NCBI GenBank assembly: GCA_902545825.1
Contig: CACCHS010000001.1
Location: forward strand, 1 to 64,000
Source of the DNA: an uncultured Pelagibacteraceae bacterium
GTDB taxonomy: Bacteria > Pseudomonadota > Alphaproteobacteria > Pelagibacterales > Pelagibacteraceae
Direction of reading: 5' to 3'
Length of the DNA: 64,000 nucleotides
In this document: piece by piece, positions 9,928 through 19,909 of the stretch
Position numbering within the stretch: position 1 is the stretch's first letter
How the letters are laid out: each line of letters opens with the position of its first letter
The notes under the pieces: generated by a model
The model's database searches: none
The model's input: the letters and a program-made list of their open reading frames with translations, nothing else
What the model was told of the DNA's origin: nothing
Program-made: the position numbers and the translations under genes

Positions 9928-10906
9928 TTTTTGTTAGAGAAATAATGAAGTCGTAAAGAATGTTCACAGCATTCAAATTGTGCTTTTTAATTAAAAGTTC
10001 GATTTCTCCAATTTTATATATGAGTTTTCTGACCTTATATAAATCCCACGCCTTCATTTGCGATTTTACTAATTCTTTATCTTTCCAAAAAATAGGCGGC
10101 TTATAATCTGAGATAACATTATCTATATTTGGGTTTTTTTTTTGATTTTCTTTCAAAATCACAAGTCGTTTTATTTTAAATAACATTATCCTAATTATTG
10201 CAATGCAGTCTTCGTAAGTATAATTATTTTCATTAAGGATCTTAGTAGTTTGTTTTAAATTTCTATTTAAACATTGATCACTTAATTCAGAATAACTATA
10301 ATTGTCTGCAAGATTGGTTAATTTAATTATATCATCAACTGCAACTTTATTTTTTATATTGATTAAACTTTCTACTTTTGCAAGTTCATTGTAAAGATTT
10401 TTTCTATCTCCTCTACATCTTTCGGCTATTATATTTATATTTTCTTGAGAAATAGAAACTTTAACTTTTTTAAAAAAATTATTAGCTAGAGTTGCAAGTG
10501 TCGAATTATCGTCAGCATAAAAAGGTATACAAACTAAATCTTTAGATTTCTCAAACTTGCTTCTCATTTTTGATTTTTTATCCAAAACGCCAGCCTTAAT
10601 AATAATTTTTATATCATCGTAATTTTTATCTAATAGATTTTCAATTAACGAAAAAAACTTATCTGTGGCCCTATTAATAATTAATGTCTTTCTGCTTTCA
10701 AACAACGATACATTGCTTAATTCTGAGAACATTATATTTGGATTATTAATTATTTCTTCAGAGTCGTATGTAAGAATGCTTTCTTGAAAGTCTTTTATAA
10801 TTATGTCTGTTATCTGTTTTTTTAAACCCTCATTTTCACCATATAGCAAAAAAAAACTATTCTTATTTGGATACAGACTCTTTACTTGAAAGGCTTTAAT
10901 AATCAT
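9917..10906 (-). CDS. holA: DNA polymerase III subunit delta
   Basis: FFLLYGENEGLKK N-terminus, length and domain pattern; holA-lptE-leuS context. Confidence 0.85.
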   Translation of the reverse strand: MIIKAFQVKSLYPNKNSFFLLYGENEGLKKQITDIIIKDFQESILTYDSEEIINNPNIMFSELSNVSLFESRKTLIINRATDKFFSLIENLLDKNYDDIKIIIKAGVLDKKSKMRSKFEKSKDLVCIPFYADDNSTLATLANNFFKKVKVSISQENINIIAERCRGDRKNLYNELAKVESLINIKNKVAVDDIIKLTNLADNYSYSELSDQCLNRNLKQTTKILNENNYTYEDCIAIIRIMLFKIKRLVILKENQKKNPNIDNVISDYKPPIFWKDKELVKSQMKAWDLYKVRKLIYKIGEIELLIKKHNLNAVNILYDFIISLTKTNN

Positions 10907-14726: not shown

Positions 14727-14831
14727 CTTGTTTAAAAAATATTGATTTTTCTTAAGTTTTGGAAAAAAGAACCTTCTCTAAGTATATAAAACCAACATTC
14801 ATATATGAATATAAAAACAAAGGAGTTTAGT

Positions 14832-15923
14832 ATGAATAAACTAAGAAAAATCGGACTTACAGCTTTAGGAACATCTTTAGTTGCAAGTTCTGCAATCGCA
14901 GCTGATGCAAGTTTAACTGGTAACGTTGGTTACACTTGGTCATCTGAAGAAGTTGGAACTTCAACAACTGATGGTATCGGTTATGAAGCTGACTTTAATA
15001 TGTCTGTAAGCGGAGAAATGGACAATGGTTGGACAGCAACTGGTTCATTACTTTTAACTGAGAGTGCTACACTTTCATCTTCTTGGACTTCACTAACTAT
15101 GGGATCAATGGGAACAATTCTCGTTGGTACTGGTTATGGTGGTGTTGGTCAAGCATATGATGATGTAACTCCAAGAGCTTACGAAGAAAATCACGACGGT
15201 ATGAAAACATCTACAGCTATCGATAACATCGGTGCTTCAATGGACAACGGCCAAATCATGTACATGTCTCCATCATTTGATGTTGCTGGATTCAGCGCAT
15301 CAGTAATGGCTGAATACGCTCCAGAAGCTGACGATGCTGCAGTAACTGATGGTGGTGTTTCTGCTGGTGCATCAAACATTTGGTCTTCAGGTCAAGGTCT
15401 TGGTGTTAAAGTATCAGGTATGGGTATTTCTGCTGGTGCATACGCAAGCGAGAAGTCAAGAGACGGTGACGCTGGTGGTGCAACTGGTGACTCAATGAAT
15501 GCTACATGGCATGTGAGCTACTCAGCTGGTCCTGTATCTATCGGTTACCAAACTGGTGGTGCTGATAACGCATTATCAACTGGTACAAGAACTGCAAACT
15601 CAAGAACTGGTGGTGCTGAGGCTGCTAATACAGCTAAGCTTTACACAACAGCTGGTGGTATATTTGAGTACGAGAAAATGTCAATTGCTGCAAACGTAAA
15701 CGACAATTTCTCAATCTCTTGGGGTGAGTTGAAAGAAACTTACGATGCTCAGGACGATGGTACAATTGCAGATGTAGAAATGAAGTCTACTTCAATTCAA
15801 TTTGCTTACTCAATGGGATCAATGTCAGTAAAAGGTTATATGACTGATACTGATAACCCAGGTTGGGATGCGAATGCATTATCTGACGAAGTAACAGAAT
15901 TAGCAGTAGGATTCTCATTCTAA
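14832..15923 (+). CDS. Major outer-membrane porin (ORF opens at 14805; ATG at 14832 preferred)
   Basis: Signal peptide MNKLRKIGLTALGTSLVASSAIAA, strong SD (aaaggag), beta-barrel-like composition, C-terminal aromatic VGFSF. Confidence 0.9.
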   Translation: MNKLRKIGLTALGTSLVASSAIAADASLTGNVGYTWSSEEVGTSTTDGIGYEADFNMSVSGEMDNGWTATGSLLLTESATLSSSWTSLTMGSMGTILVGTGYGGVGQAYDDVTPRAYEENHDGMKTSTAIDNIGASMDNGQIMYMSPSFDVAGFSASVMAEYAPEADDAAVTDGGVSAGASNIWSSGQGLGVKVSGMGISAGAYASEKSRDGDAGGATGDSMNATWHVSYSAGPVSIGYQTGGADNALSTGTRTANSRTGGAEAANTAKLYTTAGGIFEYEKMSIAANVNDNFSISWGELKETYDAQDDGTIADVEMKSTSIQFAYSMGSMSVKGYMTDTDNPGWDANALSDEVTELAVGFSF

Positions 15924-16508: not shown

Positions 16509-17147
16509 AATTCAAAAGAGAATTTAATATTAATTAAAAAAGAAATTCAAGAAATCAATCCTGATAGCCAGCTTATAGTTGTCACAAAAACTTTTGGAAT
16601 GAATAAAATTGAACCATTAATAGAATTTGGGCATAAACACTTTGGCGAAAATAAAGTTCAAGAGGCACTTGAGAAATGGGAGCCGATCAAAGCAGCGCGG
16701 AAAGATATTAATCTACATTTAATTGGAAAATTACAATCAAATAAAGTTAAATTTTGTTTACCACTTTTTGATTATATTCACGGTTTAGATAGTATTAAAT
16801 TGGCAGATAAAATTGCAAACGAGCAAGTCAAAAAAAATTTTAGACCAAAAGTTTTTATACAAATTAACATCGGGGATGAAGAACAAAAAGGTGGCGTAGG
16901 ATGTGAGGAAGTTTCAAAGTTTTATTCAGATATAAAAAAAAGATTTGATCTAGATATAATTGGGTTGATGTGTATACCTCCTTTTGTTGATGATACCACA
17001 CCATTTTTCGTAAAAATGAAATCTATTGCTGCAACTTTAAATATGAAAAATTTGAGTATGGGTATGTCTGATGACTATAAAGAGGCTTTAAAACATTCTG
17101 CAACATTTATAAGAGTTGGATCAAAAATAATGGGAAAGAGAATTTAA
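16503..17147 (+). CDS. YggS-family PLP homeostasis protein
   Basis: LIVVTKTFG, HFGENKVQEALEKW, LHLIGKLQSNK, RVGSKIMGKR. Confidence 0.93.
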   Translation: MHNSKENLILIKKEIQEINPDSQLIVVTKTFGMNKIEPLIEFGHKHFGENKVQEALEKWEPIKAARKDINLHLIGKLQSNKVKFCLPLFDYIHGLDSIKLADKIANEQVKKNFRPKVFIQINIGDEEQKGGVGCEEVSKFYSDIKKRFDLDIIGLMCIPPFVDDTTPFFVKMKSIAATLNMKNLSMGMSDDYKEALKHSATFIRVGSKIMGKRI

Positions 17148-17635
17148 TAAATTCTAATTTTAGTTTTTTTGTTAATTATTTTAAGAAGCACTAGCATATC
17201 ATTTTTACTTAGCGCAATACATCCAGCTGTAGGTTTATAGTTTTTTGTAAGGTGTATAAATATGGCACTACCTTTGAATGGAACAGTTTTATTTAAATTA
17301 TAGTCTATAATAATCACCAAATCATACTTTTGATCTTTTCTAAATAATTTTTCATGTTTAATTTTTTTAGTCGTTTTTATGAGTGAATTGTATTGTTTAT
17401 GTTTTGGATCGTTACACCAACCCATTTTTTTTTTTATTTGTTTTTTTTGAAGTACAGTATTTATTTTTTTAAATCTATCGGATCTGTAGTAAAGTTTTTT
17501 TAATAAAAAAGTTCCTTTAGGGGTACTAAAATCTCCTTCAAGCTTTTTTGTTTTAAGGCCTTTTTTACCTATACAGCATTTAAAAGAAAATTCGTCTATA
17601 TTTAATCTATCTTTATTTTTTAAACGTATTAGCAT
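17144..17635 (-). CDS. L,D-transpeptidase (YkuD) family protein
   Basis: IGKKGLKTKKLEGDFSTPKGTF; catalytic-type IFIHL..PTAGCIALSKNDM. Confidence 0.87.
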   Translation of the reverse strand: MLIRLKNKDRLNIDEFSFKCCIGKKGLKTKKLEGDFSTPKGTFLLKKLYYRSDRFKKINTVLQKKQIKKKMGWCNDPKHKQYNSLIKTTKKIKHEKLFRKDQKYDLVIIIDYNLNKTVPFKGSAIFIHLTKNYKPTAGCIALSKNDMLVLLKIINKKTKIRIY

Positions 17636-17646
17636 AAATTAAGTAA

Positions 17647-18213
17647 ATGTCTCAATCAAAAGTCATTATATTAAATTTAAAAGGTTTGTATAATATTCTT
17701 TTAGAGTTAAAAGAATTTCTAAAATTTGAAATAATATATCGCAAAAGTGAGAATGAATTAGTAAAAGAAAATGGGTCAAGTAACCATTTAATAATTTCAG
17801 ATAGAAAAATATCTAATAATACAGATACTAAAAATTTTATTATTCTGAATCAGCTACCTTTAAAAATTTTAGATTTAATTGAAAAAATAAATATAAGTTT
17901 GTTAAAACAAAAATATAGTTTCCAATCTAATTTTGAAATTAAACAATACAAAATAGATTTAAACTCAAGAATTATGTCCTACCAAAAAAAAGATTTAAAA
18001 TTAACAGAAAGAGAAACTGAAATTATTTTATTTTTAAATACACGGAAAACTCCCCAAAGTATTGATATATTACAAAAAGAAGTTTGGGGGTATTCAGAAA
18101 ACTTAGAGACACATACAGTTGAAACTCATATTTATAGATTAAGAAAAAAAATTAAAGATACATTTAAAGATGATAATTTTTTAATCAGTTCAAAAGATGG
18201 TTATAAAATTTAA
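17647..18213 (+). CDS. OmpR-type winged-helix regulator with a degenerate receiver-like N-terminus
   Basis: LTERETEIILFL...LQKEVWGYSENLETHTVETHIYRLRKKI; no clear phospho-acceptor Asp pocket in N-terminal half. Confidence 0.78.
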   Translation: MSQSKVIILNLKGLYNILLELKEFLKFEIIYRKSENELVKENGSSNHLIISDRKISNNTDTKNFIILNQLPLKILDLIEKINISLLKQKYSFQSNFEIKQYKIDLNSRIMSYQKKDLKLTERETEIILFLNTRKTPQSIDILQKEVWGYSENLETHTVETHIYRLRKKIKDTFKDDNFLISSKDGYKI

Positions 18214-18321
18214 ATGAAAAAAAAAAATTTAGTAGCAAAAAATTTGATGTCAAAGCGTTATAAACCCAGGGTGGTTAAGCCTAAAAAAGGAAAAGGTAGC
18301 TTTAAAAGACAAAAAAAATAA
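18214..18321 (+). CDS. arfA: 35-aa basic protein, ArfA-like ribosome-rescue factor candidate (not in ORF track)
   Basis: ATG abuts the preceding TAA; translation MKKKNLVAKNLMSKRYKPRVVKPKKGKGSFKRQKK resembles the ArfA core RVxKxKKGKGSYxRK. Confidence 0.65.
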   Translation: MKKKNLVAKNLMSKRYKPRVVKPKKGKGSFKRQKK

Positions 18322-18324
18322 TTT

Positions 18325-19254
18325 TTACAGTCTAGCCCCAATTTGTTGAATAACTTTAGAGGACATTTCAGTACCTTTTATGAGGCTATCTTTTAAAGAC
18401 ATTTTATTAACGTACCCGTGTAAAAAACCTGCAGCGAAAAGATCTCCAGCACCTGTTAGATCAACAATTTTTAGGCCTTTTTGTACACCACACTCAACAA
18501 TTTCTTTTCCATTAATAGCTACCGCACCTTTTTCACCTCTAGTTAATACGATTATTTTATTAAGCGATTTTGAAAAATTTATTACTTCATCAAAAGATTT
18601 TGCATTTATTAAAGACATAATTTCTTGCTCATTGGCGAATGTTATATCTATTTTATTTTTTACTAACTCTAAAAAATGAGGTTTATGTCGATCGACACAA
18701 AATTGATCTGATAAAGACATCGCTACTTTGTTTGCGCTGAGAATTGCTTTTTCAAAAGCTTTTTTTGGTTCTCCTTCGTCCCACAGATATCCCTCTAAAA
18801 GGATTGTTTGACTTTGTTTAATTGCATCTGAATTAACATCATTTTCATTTATTTTACCCGCTGTTCCTAAAAAAGTGCACATTGTTCTTTCTGAGTCTGG
18901 AGTAACTAAAATTAAGCAAGTTCCAGTGGGCAAATCTTCTTTTTTCTTTGAGTAAAAATATTTAACATTTTCTTGCTTCAGACCATCCTCATATTTACTG
19001 CCAAGTTCATCGTCATTAACCTTGCCAATAAATCCAACCTCGTTTCCAAGTTGCGATAATCCAACAATAGAATTTGCAACTGATCCACCCGAAACTGTTT
19101 TTTCTATTTTAAGATTTGAGAGTAATTTTTTGAACTCGCTTTCATTAAATATGAGTTTCATAGTGCTTTTTGTTAATTCATTTTTAGTTATAAAGTCATC
19201 TCCAACTTTACAAATCACGTCTACTATTGCGTTTCCTATACCTAAAATTTTCAT
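18325..19254 (-). CDS. PfkB-family carbohydrate/nucleoside kinase (adenosine kinase-like)
   Basis: GIGNAIVDVICKV, GGSVANSIVGLSQLG, DLTGAGDLFAAGFLHG. Confidence 0.92.
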   Translation of the reverse strand: MKILGIGNAIVDVICKVGDDFITKNELTKSTMKLIFNESEFKKLLSNLKIEKTVSGGSVANSIVGLSQLGNEVGFIGKVNDDELGSKYEDGLKQENVKYFYSKKKEDLPTGTCLILVTPDSERTMCTFLGTAGKINENDVNSDAIKQSQTILLEGYLWDEGEPKKAFEKAILSANKVAMSLSDQFCVDRHKPHFLELVKNKIDITFANEQEIMSLINAKSFDEVINFSKSLNKIIVLTRGEKGAVAINGKEIVECGVQKGLKIVDLTGAGDLFAAGFLHGYVNKMSLKDSLIKGTEMSSKVIQQIGARL

Positions 19255-19255
19255 A

Positions 19256-19909
19256 TCAAGCTTTCTTAGTTTTGATTGGTTTTTTTCTATTAGGATAACA
19301 ACTAGTACAAATTTTACAAGTTATTCCGAAGCATTCTCTAGCTCTACAATACTCTCTCCCATAGAAAATTATTTGAAGATGTAATTTATTCCAATATTTC
19401 ATTGGAAATACTCTTTTAAGATCTTTTTCTGTTTGAACAACGTTTTTACCATTAGTAAGTCCCCATCTTTGTGCTAGTCGGTGAATATGAGTATCGACAG
19501 GAAAAGCTGGATGACCAAAACCTTGTGCCATCACAACGCTTGCAGTTTTGTGTCCAACACCTGGAAGTTCCTCCAATTCCTTAAAAGTTTTAGGTACTTT
19601 GCCTTTATACTTTTCAACTAAGGTTTTTGAGAGATTATATATACTCTTCGCTTTTATTCTAAATATTCCAATACTTCTGATTAATCTTTCAATTTTTTTT
19701 CTTCCCAATTTCACAAAATGTTCAGGTTTATTATACTTTGGATAAATATTTTTAGTTACATTATTAACATTTACATCAGTACATTGAGCTGAGAGTAAAA
19801 CCGATACTAATAAAGTAAAATTATTTCTATGTTTTAGAGGTACGGATGTTTTTGGATAAATCTTATTTAATGTTTTAAGTATTATTTTAACTTTGCTTGC
19901 TTCATTCAT
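19256..19909 (-). CDS. nth: Endonuclease III
   Basis: LLSAQCTDVNVN, ELPGVGHKTASVV, VDTHIHRLAQRWGL, Fe-S cysteines near the C-terminus. Confidence 0.96.
   Translation of the reverse strand: MNEASKVKIILKTLNKIYPKTSVPLKHRNNFTLLVSVLLSAQCTDVNVNNVTKNIYPKYNKPEHFVKLGRKKIERLIRSIGIFRIKAKSIYNLSKTLVEKYKGKVPKTFKELEELPGVGHKTASVVMAQGFGHPAFPVDTHIHRLAQRWGLTNGKNVVQTEKDLKRVFPMKYWNKLHLQIIFYGREYCRARECFGITCKICTSCYPNRKKPIKTKKA

Follow-up and report, generated by a model that had tools for sequence, protein, structure and literature searches.

Within a 64,000-nucleotide stretch from an uncultured Pelagibacteraceae bacterium (contig CACCHS010000001.1; hereafter the window), the open reading frame (ORF) at 18214-18321 is, judged by its sequence, a genuine gene belonging to the ArfA family of ribosome-rescue factors. 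Its product of 35 amino acids (aa; MKKKNLVAKNLMSKRYKPRVVKPKKGKGSFKRQKK) appears to be a true family member in a minimal, hairpin-free form, whose gene is coupled in an operon to an upstream regulator, in a lineage (SAR11) where ArfA was reported absent.

A 35-residue member of the ArfA family

The peptide matches the Pfam ArfA model PF03889 with an E value of 9.8e-7, far outside the range of chance, and its 28.6 bits exceed the gathering score (25.5); it is the single PF03889 match in the source genome (864,603 bases, 43 contigs, 71% complete). A preliminary description of the window had noticed the likeness to ArfA by eye and proposed a search with the PF03889 hidden Markov model; this search, once run, bore out the assignment. 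The same description had placed the ORF on the base after an upstream TAA, and both its coordinates and its 35 residues proved exact, the ATG lying directly behind the TAA of the regulator gene (18211-18213). A profile built from 36 SAR11 orthologues (A1) retrieved six distinct chains from the PDB sequences, every one of them ArfA (E 2.6e-7 to 7.9e-7), and the profile alignment of SAR11 ArfA with the ArfA chains seen by cryo-electron microscopy (cryo-EM) is free of gaps. Scans of the peptide against Pfam and NCBIfam gave ArfA alone or nothing, with no NCBIfam model matching and no search aimed at BrfA or ArfT made, and a PHROGs search returned weak, unnamed matches only. The ORF has no GGQ motif and so does not qualify as ArfB (YaeJ), which bears GGQ and is ~140 aa long.

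Conservation points in the same direction. The KKGKG motif is invariant in the protein in all 85 orthologues, followed by Ser or Ala, then Phe or Tyr and, two positions further on, Arg, so that the KKGKGS motif singled out in the preliminary description is kept at orthologous positions across SAR11. Beyond this basic block, conservation extends to an NxxAxxL pattern and an aromatic residue. Over a 28-codon core in 85 distinct orthologues, the proportions of non-synonymous (pN) and synonymous (pS) differences are 0.16 and 0.68, respectively, and the median ratio of non-synonymous to synonymous rates (dN/dS) is 0.15, a ratio that is approximate because pS is near saturation. The DNA encoding KKGKG is synonymously variable, its Gly codons using all four third bases. 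The peptide is clearly under purifying selection.

Distribution across the Pelagibacterales

About two thirds of 297 Pelagibacterales genomes carry arfA once. PF03889 matches were found in 196 of them, one per genome among the matches listed; 114 lie over the cut-off and 82 below it, with E values up to 0.001. Profile A1 matches 203 of the 297, nearly all with E <1e-13. Weak A1 matches in one further genus (g3) and one further family (f2; E 3e-5 to 7e-4) were not accepted, the pfkB locus of the g3 genomes being without arfA.

The gene nearly always occupies the same chromosomal position, between a regulator gene and a convergent pfkB, across several Pelagibacteraceae genera. In 12 genomes of the same genus that lack it there, no PF03889 match was found anywhere in the genome, and the regulator and pfkB lie next to each other, with -4 to +35 bp between them; three g3 genomes also lack arfA at this locus. 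On a pfkB tree of 101 loci, presence and absence require six changes, or about five once locus L077 is removed, an apparent loss that turned out to be an artefact of the neighbour search, since the locus does encode arfA. This single-gene tree is most simply explained by an old gain in the family followed by several losses; ArfA itself, with 35 residues, is too short for a decisive tree. The conservation in SAR11 that the preliminary description had asked about thus holds as regards the fixed locus and about two thirds of the genomes, and does not extend to all of them: strain HTCC1062 (genome G011) lacks both ArfA and ArfB.

An ordinary stop codon, no tail and no hairpin

The protein ends six residues after GKGS in 54 of 85 SAR11 loci, and the longest end comprises 16 residues. 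When the last 60 nucleotides (nt) of the gene and 60 nt downstream were folded at the 85 loci, no excess RNA structure was found at the arfA 3' end (mean z-score -0.03, 1% below -2; +0.59 at the arfA of the window), and the same script gave -39.9 kcal/mol and a z-score of -3.05 for the second half of E. coli arfA. No terminator-like site was found in the window, and a search for Rfam elements gave no match; a looser terminator pattern occurs near the stop at 14 of 85 loci, a count that comes without a shuffled control. A cryptic nonstop design, based on a hairpin, a terminator or an Rfam element, was therefore rejected. The convergent pfkB was likewise discarded as the cause of the missing tail, because in several genomes 600-950 bp separate the two genes and arfA is both retained and short.

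Since the gene ends in a normal stop codon and has neither hairpin nor tail, SAR11 ArfA should be made directly in its mature form. The short ends and the lack of excess 3' structure support the view of the preliminary description that this may be a minimal, constitutively mature version without the C-terminal tail. Its statement that the protein ends right after the region that binds the mRNA channel needs correction: the end falls inside the segment (aa 31-48) with which E. coli ArfA occupies the mRNA tunnel (PMC5378476).

The locus and coupling to the regulator

The gene order YkuD, OmpR-type regulator, arfA, convergent pfkB and nth is conserved (Table 1). Among the first 31 loci, the winged-helix regulator and pfkB are among the neighbours of arfA in 29, with YkuD and nth usually beyond them. 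In the window, the pfkB stop codon lies 3 bp from that of arfA.

Table 1 Genes at and around arfA in the window
Feature	Position	Strand	Remarks
arfA	18214..18321	+	35-aa tail-less ArfA homologue; ATG 18214, TAA 18319-18321
OmpR/PhoB-type regulator, 188 aa	17647..18213	+	PF00486, E 2.5e-11; winged helix 115-187 behind reduced receiver-like domain
pfkB-family kinase, convergent	18325..19254	-	PF00294, E 1.9e-46; synteny
L,D-transpeptidase-type gene (YkuD), divergent, upstream of regulator	17144..17635	-	PF03734, E 2e-14; synteny
nth-like endonuclease gene, outer syntenic marker	19256..19909	-	Named by eye; adjoins pfkB in most loci

Of 84 loci with a recognizable regulator stop, 79 have an arfA start that overlaps this stop or adjoins it: the overlap is exactly 4 nt (ATGA, GTGA or TTGA) in 49, 8-29 nt in 22, and an abutment or 1-nt overlap in 8, with the remaining starts lying downstream (3) or being unassignable (2). 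A 4-nt overlap of start and stop is the usual layout for termination-reinitiation coupling. Because of this overlap or abutment, it is likely that arfA is translationally coupled to the regulator, and the coupling to a winged-helix regulator suggested in the preliminary description is thus a conserved arrangement. An AlphaFold model of the regulator (mean predicted local distance difference test score 88.9, predicted template modelling score 0.62) matches OmpR/PhoB response regulators and suggests that its N-terminal part is a reduced receiver-like domain.

The YkuD and regulator genes diverge from start codons only 11 bp apart, so that each promoter probably lies within the coding region of the other gene. 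Further upstream, positions 14805-15923 encode a 372-aa protein that, by eye from the list of ORFs, resembles an outer-membrane porin with a signal sequence.

Rescue partners in SAR11

Alpha-type transfer-messenger RNA (tmRNA) and SmpB are present in all 20 SAR11 genomes tested, complete ones included. In HTCC1062, the tmRNA was located at 10219-10520, the published interval for this strain being 10302-10518 (PMC2704228). Each of the 20 genomes encodes exactly two RF-1-domain proteins of 346-374 aa, and in all ten genomes examined the pair consists of one release factor 1 (RF1) and one release factor 2 (RF2). The ArfB model NF006718 was above its cut-off in none of the 297 Pelagibacterales genomes and exceeded it in two control genomes; together with the count of RF-1-domain proteins, this led to the rejection of ArfB as a real backup in SAR11.

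The contacts of ArfA on RF2 known from cryo-EM comprise Trp319, Phe217, Val198 and the RHTSF strand (PMC5378476). All but Val198, which is Ile in most cases, are retained in SAR11 RF2. Trp319 belongs to the switch loop, and SAR11 RF1 lacks this Trp.

Phage-borne ArfA

Marine viral contigs frequently carry ArfA-like ORFs. One such ORF, whose contig also has an endolysin gene, shares 79% identity with the window peptide over 33 residues; another lies on a 74-kb viral contig (L246) among T4-type clamp-loader genes, with a match to the PHROG 'S6 glutaminyl transferase' nearby. A tblastn search of phages and plasmids with the bare 35-aa peptide gave no match, probably owing to low-complexity masking, and a longer phage query worked. 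In print, gp30 of pelagiphage HTVC027P has already been named ArfA (PMC12753301). It resembles the SAR11 protein in its ArfA core, in ending soon after that core and in belonging to a phage that infects SAR11; it differs in being a phage gene product of 58 aa with an extra N-terminal part, and it scores 20.2 bits, below the Pfam cut-off. In HTVC034P, gp63 (L317:142-267), a 41-aa protein annotated as hypothetical, looks like a tail-less ArfA.

Both HTVC027P and HTVC034P infect HTCC1062, and it is an attractive idea that phages may provide a host lacking arfA with a means of rescue. Carriage of tmRNA by marine phages is a related precedent (PMC9004378).

Two side observations concern phages more broadly. 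In Caulobacter phage Cr30 (KF301602), an unannotated ORF between two annotated genes (L319:338-499) encodes an ArfA-like sequence, MIMPKKTTTSHSFQHQSKRNPIAKALRSSHLQPKIVKPRKGKGSFTRKGK. On four IMG/VR contigs (L248, L259, L303 and L309), the ArfA core sits inside phage proteins of 136-150 aa, flanked by conserved N- and C-terminal parts; the L303 protein matches PF03889 at 2.2e-6. Phage ArfA cores with ~65 extra C-terminal residues may bear on the need for a free C-terminus.

Proposed mechanism and alternatives

We consider it probable that the gene encodes a minimal, hairpin-free and regulator-coupled ArfA that rescues ribosomes by recruiting RF2, as a backup to tmRNA-SmpB. On a ribosome that has passed the end of a broken mRNA, the basic C-terminal half of the protein (RVVKPKKGKGSFKRQKK) would enter the empty 30S mRNA tunnel, and the preceding NxxAxxL...Y segment would occupy the decoding centre. 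RF2 would then be recruited and switched on, so that the nascent chain would be released without a stop codon. The output of mature protein would be set, via stop-codon coupling, by translation of the upstream OmpR-type regulator, and the factor would back up tmRNA-SmpB in a lineage without ArfB. The sequence features on which this proposal is built are homology, conservation, selection, synteny, overlap with the regulator, the absent tail and hairpin, the presence of tmRNA, SmpB and RF2, and the absence of ArfB; from them we infer tunnel binding, RF2 recruitment, rescue, translational coupling and constitutive expression. For a rescue function, homology is good but not conclusive evidence.

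The contact residues kept in SAR11 RF2 speak for the proposal; they are identical in arfA-negative genomes, however, and Trp319 also serves ordinary termination, so that they would allow ArfA to act without being proof that it does.

Several observations weigh against this mechanism. Several SAR11 clades live without arfA. In E. coli ArfA, Leu19, Leu24 and Phe25 form a hydrophobic patch that grips Trp319 of RF2 (PMC5378476); only the aromatic residue is kept in SAR11, the other two being mostly Asp, Asn or Glu and Lys or Arg, respectively. Position 19 is variable in other aligned PF03889 members too, alphaproteobacterial ones included, and in this alignment the patch appears to be a feature of E. 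coli, not of the whole family. The 35-aa forms also lack the N-terminal part that in E. coli doubles back onto h44 and S12. Finally, the last residue of most SAR11 ArfAs corresponds to E. coli residue 44, about three residues short of Asn47, and E. coli ArfA cut shorter than Asn47 is non-functional (PMC5378476). Extra Lys residues may compensate for the short C-terminus, and the differences in the patch and at both termini may mean a remodelled contact with RF2.

These differences also bear on a reading in which the ArfA homologue binds the empty mRNA channel but works with another partner or another chemistry: it might pair with RF1, for example, or sense or plug ribosomes that are idle. With polar or charged residues at the equivalents of Leu19 and Leu24, the patch gripping RF2 is not conserved, and Francisella ArfT, which can use RF1 or RF2 (PMC6299226, PMC8012679), provides a precedent; however, it is RF2 and not RF1 that keeps the switch-loop Trp in SAR11, position 19 is not fixed elsewhere in PF03889 either, and we regard this reading as improbable. 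Still less probable is a generic Lys-rich RNA-binding or ribosome-associated peptide resembling ArfA only through KKGKGS. Such a peptide could be expected of a short, very basic ORF, the more so as AT-rich genomes yield many Lys codons, but the Pfam and PDB profile searches returned ArfA alone, the NxxAxxL pattern and the aromatic residue are conserved besides the basic block, and there is one match per genome at a fixed locus.

That the ORF arose by chance, or as a by-product of overlap with neighbours that it abuts at its start and approaches to 3 bp at its stop, is scarcely credible in view of the dN/dS over 85 orthologues, the retention of arfA despite inserts of 600-950 bp before pfkB, and the clean absences elsewhere, where the regulator and pfkB nearly abut. 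A different question is that of origin, and either mechanism would be compatible with a recent capture of arfA from phage in place of an old SAR11 gene. The abundance of ArfA-like ORFs on marine viral contigs, including the close relative of the window peptide, favours such a capture, whereas the shared chromosomal position in several Pelagibacteraceae genera and a pfkB tree that fits old presence and several losses make it unlikely; the earlier, original source of SAR11 arfA could nonetheless have been a phage.

Taken further, the proposal of an RF2-recruiting ArfA leads to a tentative picture, possible in our view although we would not yet favour it: a constitutive minimal ArfA, free of the tmRNA switch and co-translated with an atypical OmpR-type regulator, would be the sole backup of trans-translation, and strains without arfA, such as HTCC1062, would depend on tmRNA alone, their phages bringing ArfA to keep ribosomes free during infection. 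The clean absences of arfA, with complete genomes on both sides, constitute a natural comparison, and the phage-borne copies tie ribosome rescue to infection of SAR11. A naturally minimal ArfA also bears on how little protein suffices to detect that the mRNA channel is empty and to turn on RF2.

Comparison with known rescue systems

According to a 2021 review, ArfA occurs only in some of the beta- and gammaproteobacteria (PMC8012679). A 2024 survey of 15,259 genomes with nucleotide profiles lists 0 arfA and 2,022 arfB in 2,376 Alphaproteobacteria (PMC11633108). With arfA conserved in SAR11, the most abundant bacterial family of the ocean, this published distribution map changes. No paper describing an ArfA encoded on a SAR11 chromosome turned up in a full-text search of the open-access literature; PF03889 labels may already be attached to some SAR11 proteins in databases. 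Outside SAR11, ArfA was found in 7 of about 380 alphaproteobacterial genomes of a class-wide sample. These proteins are like those of SAR11 in having the PF03889 core with an NxxAxxL-like pattern, and unlike them in being sporadic. The arfA of at least one such genome (G407, locus L093) has a tail and, inside the ORF, a strong terminator-like hairpin (AAAAACGCCG...CGGCGTTTTTT), and because of this hairpin the classical nonstop design appears to occur in Alphaproteobacteria, outside the beta- and gammaproteobacteria, with SAR11 seemingly lacking it.

The closest point of reference is E. coli ArfA (YhdL), with which the SAR11 protein aligns without gaps over N14-K42 in both profile and multiple alignments. 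The two have in common the N, L20, the aromatic residue at 25, R28, V29, KKGKGS, the aromatic residue at 39 and R41. By contrast, the SAR11 form, with 35 aa in place of 72, has no N-terminal fold-back, hydrophobic tail or in-gene hairpin, and neither L19 nor L24. The genomic context differs as well: E. coli arfA is antiparallel to mscL, and SAR11 arfA stands behind an OmpR-type regulator. In E. coli, a stem-loop within the 72-aa ORF gives rise to a nonstop mRNA; trans-translation deals with the resulting product, and ArfA appears only when that process fails (PMC8012679). BrfA of Bacillus and ArfT of Francisella are likewise small rescue factors that depend on release factors (PMC6881298, PMC6299226). 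As regards pairing with RF2, low compatibility between species has been reported (PMC6881298). In its apparent regulation, SAR11 arfA is unlike both E. coli arfA and BrfA: it would produce no nonstop message and therefore escape repression by tmRNA.
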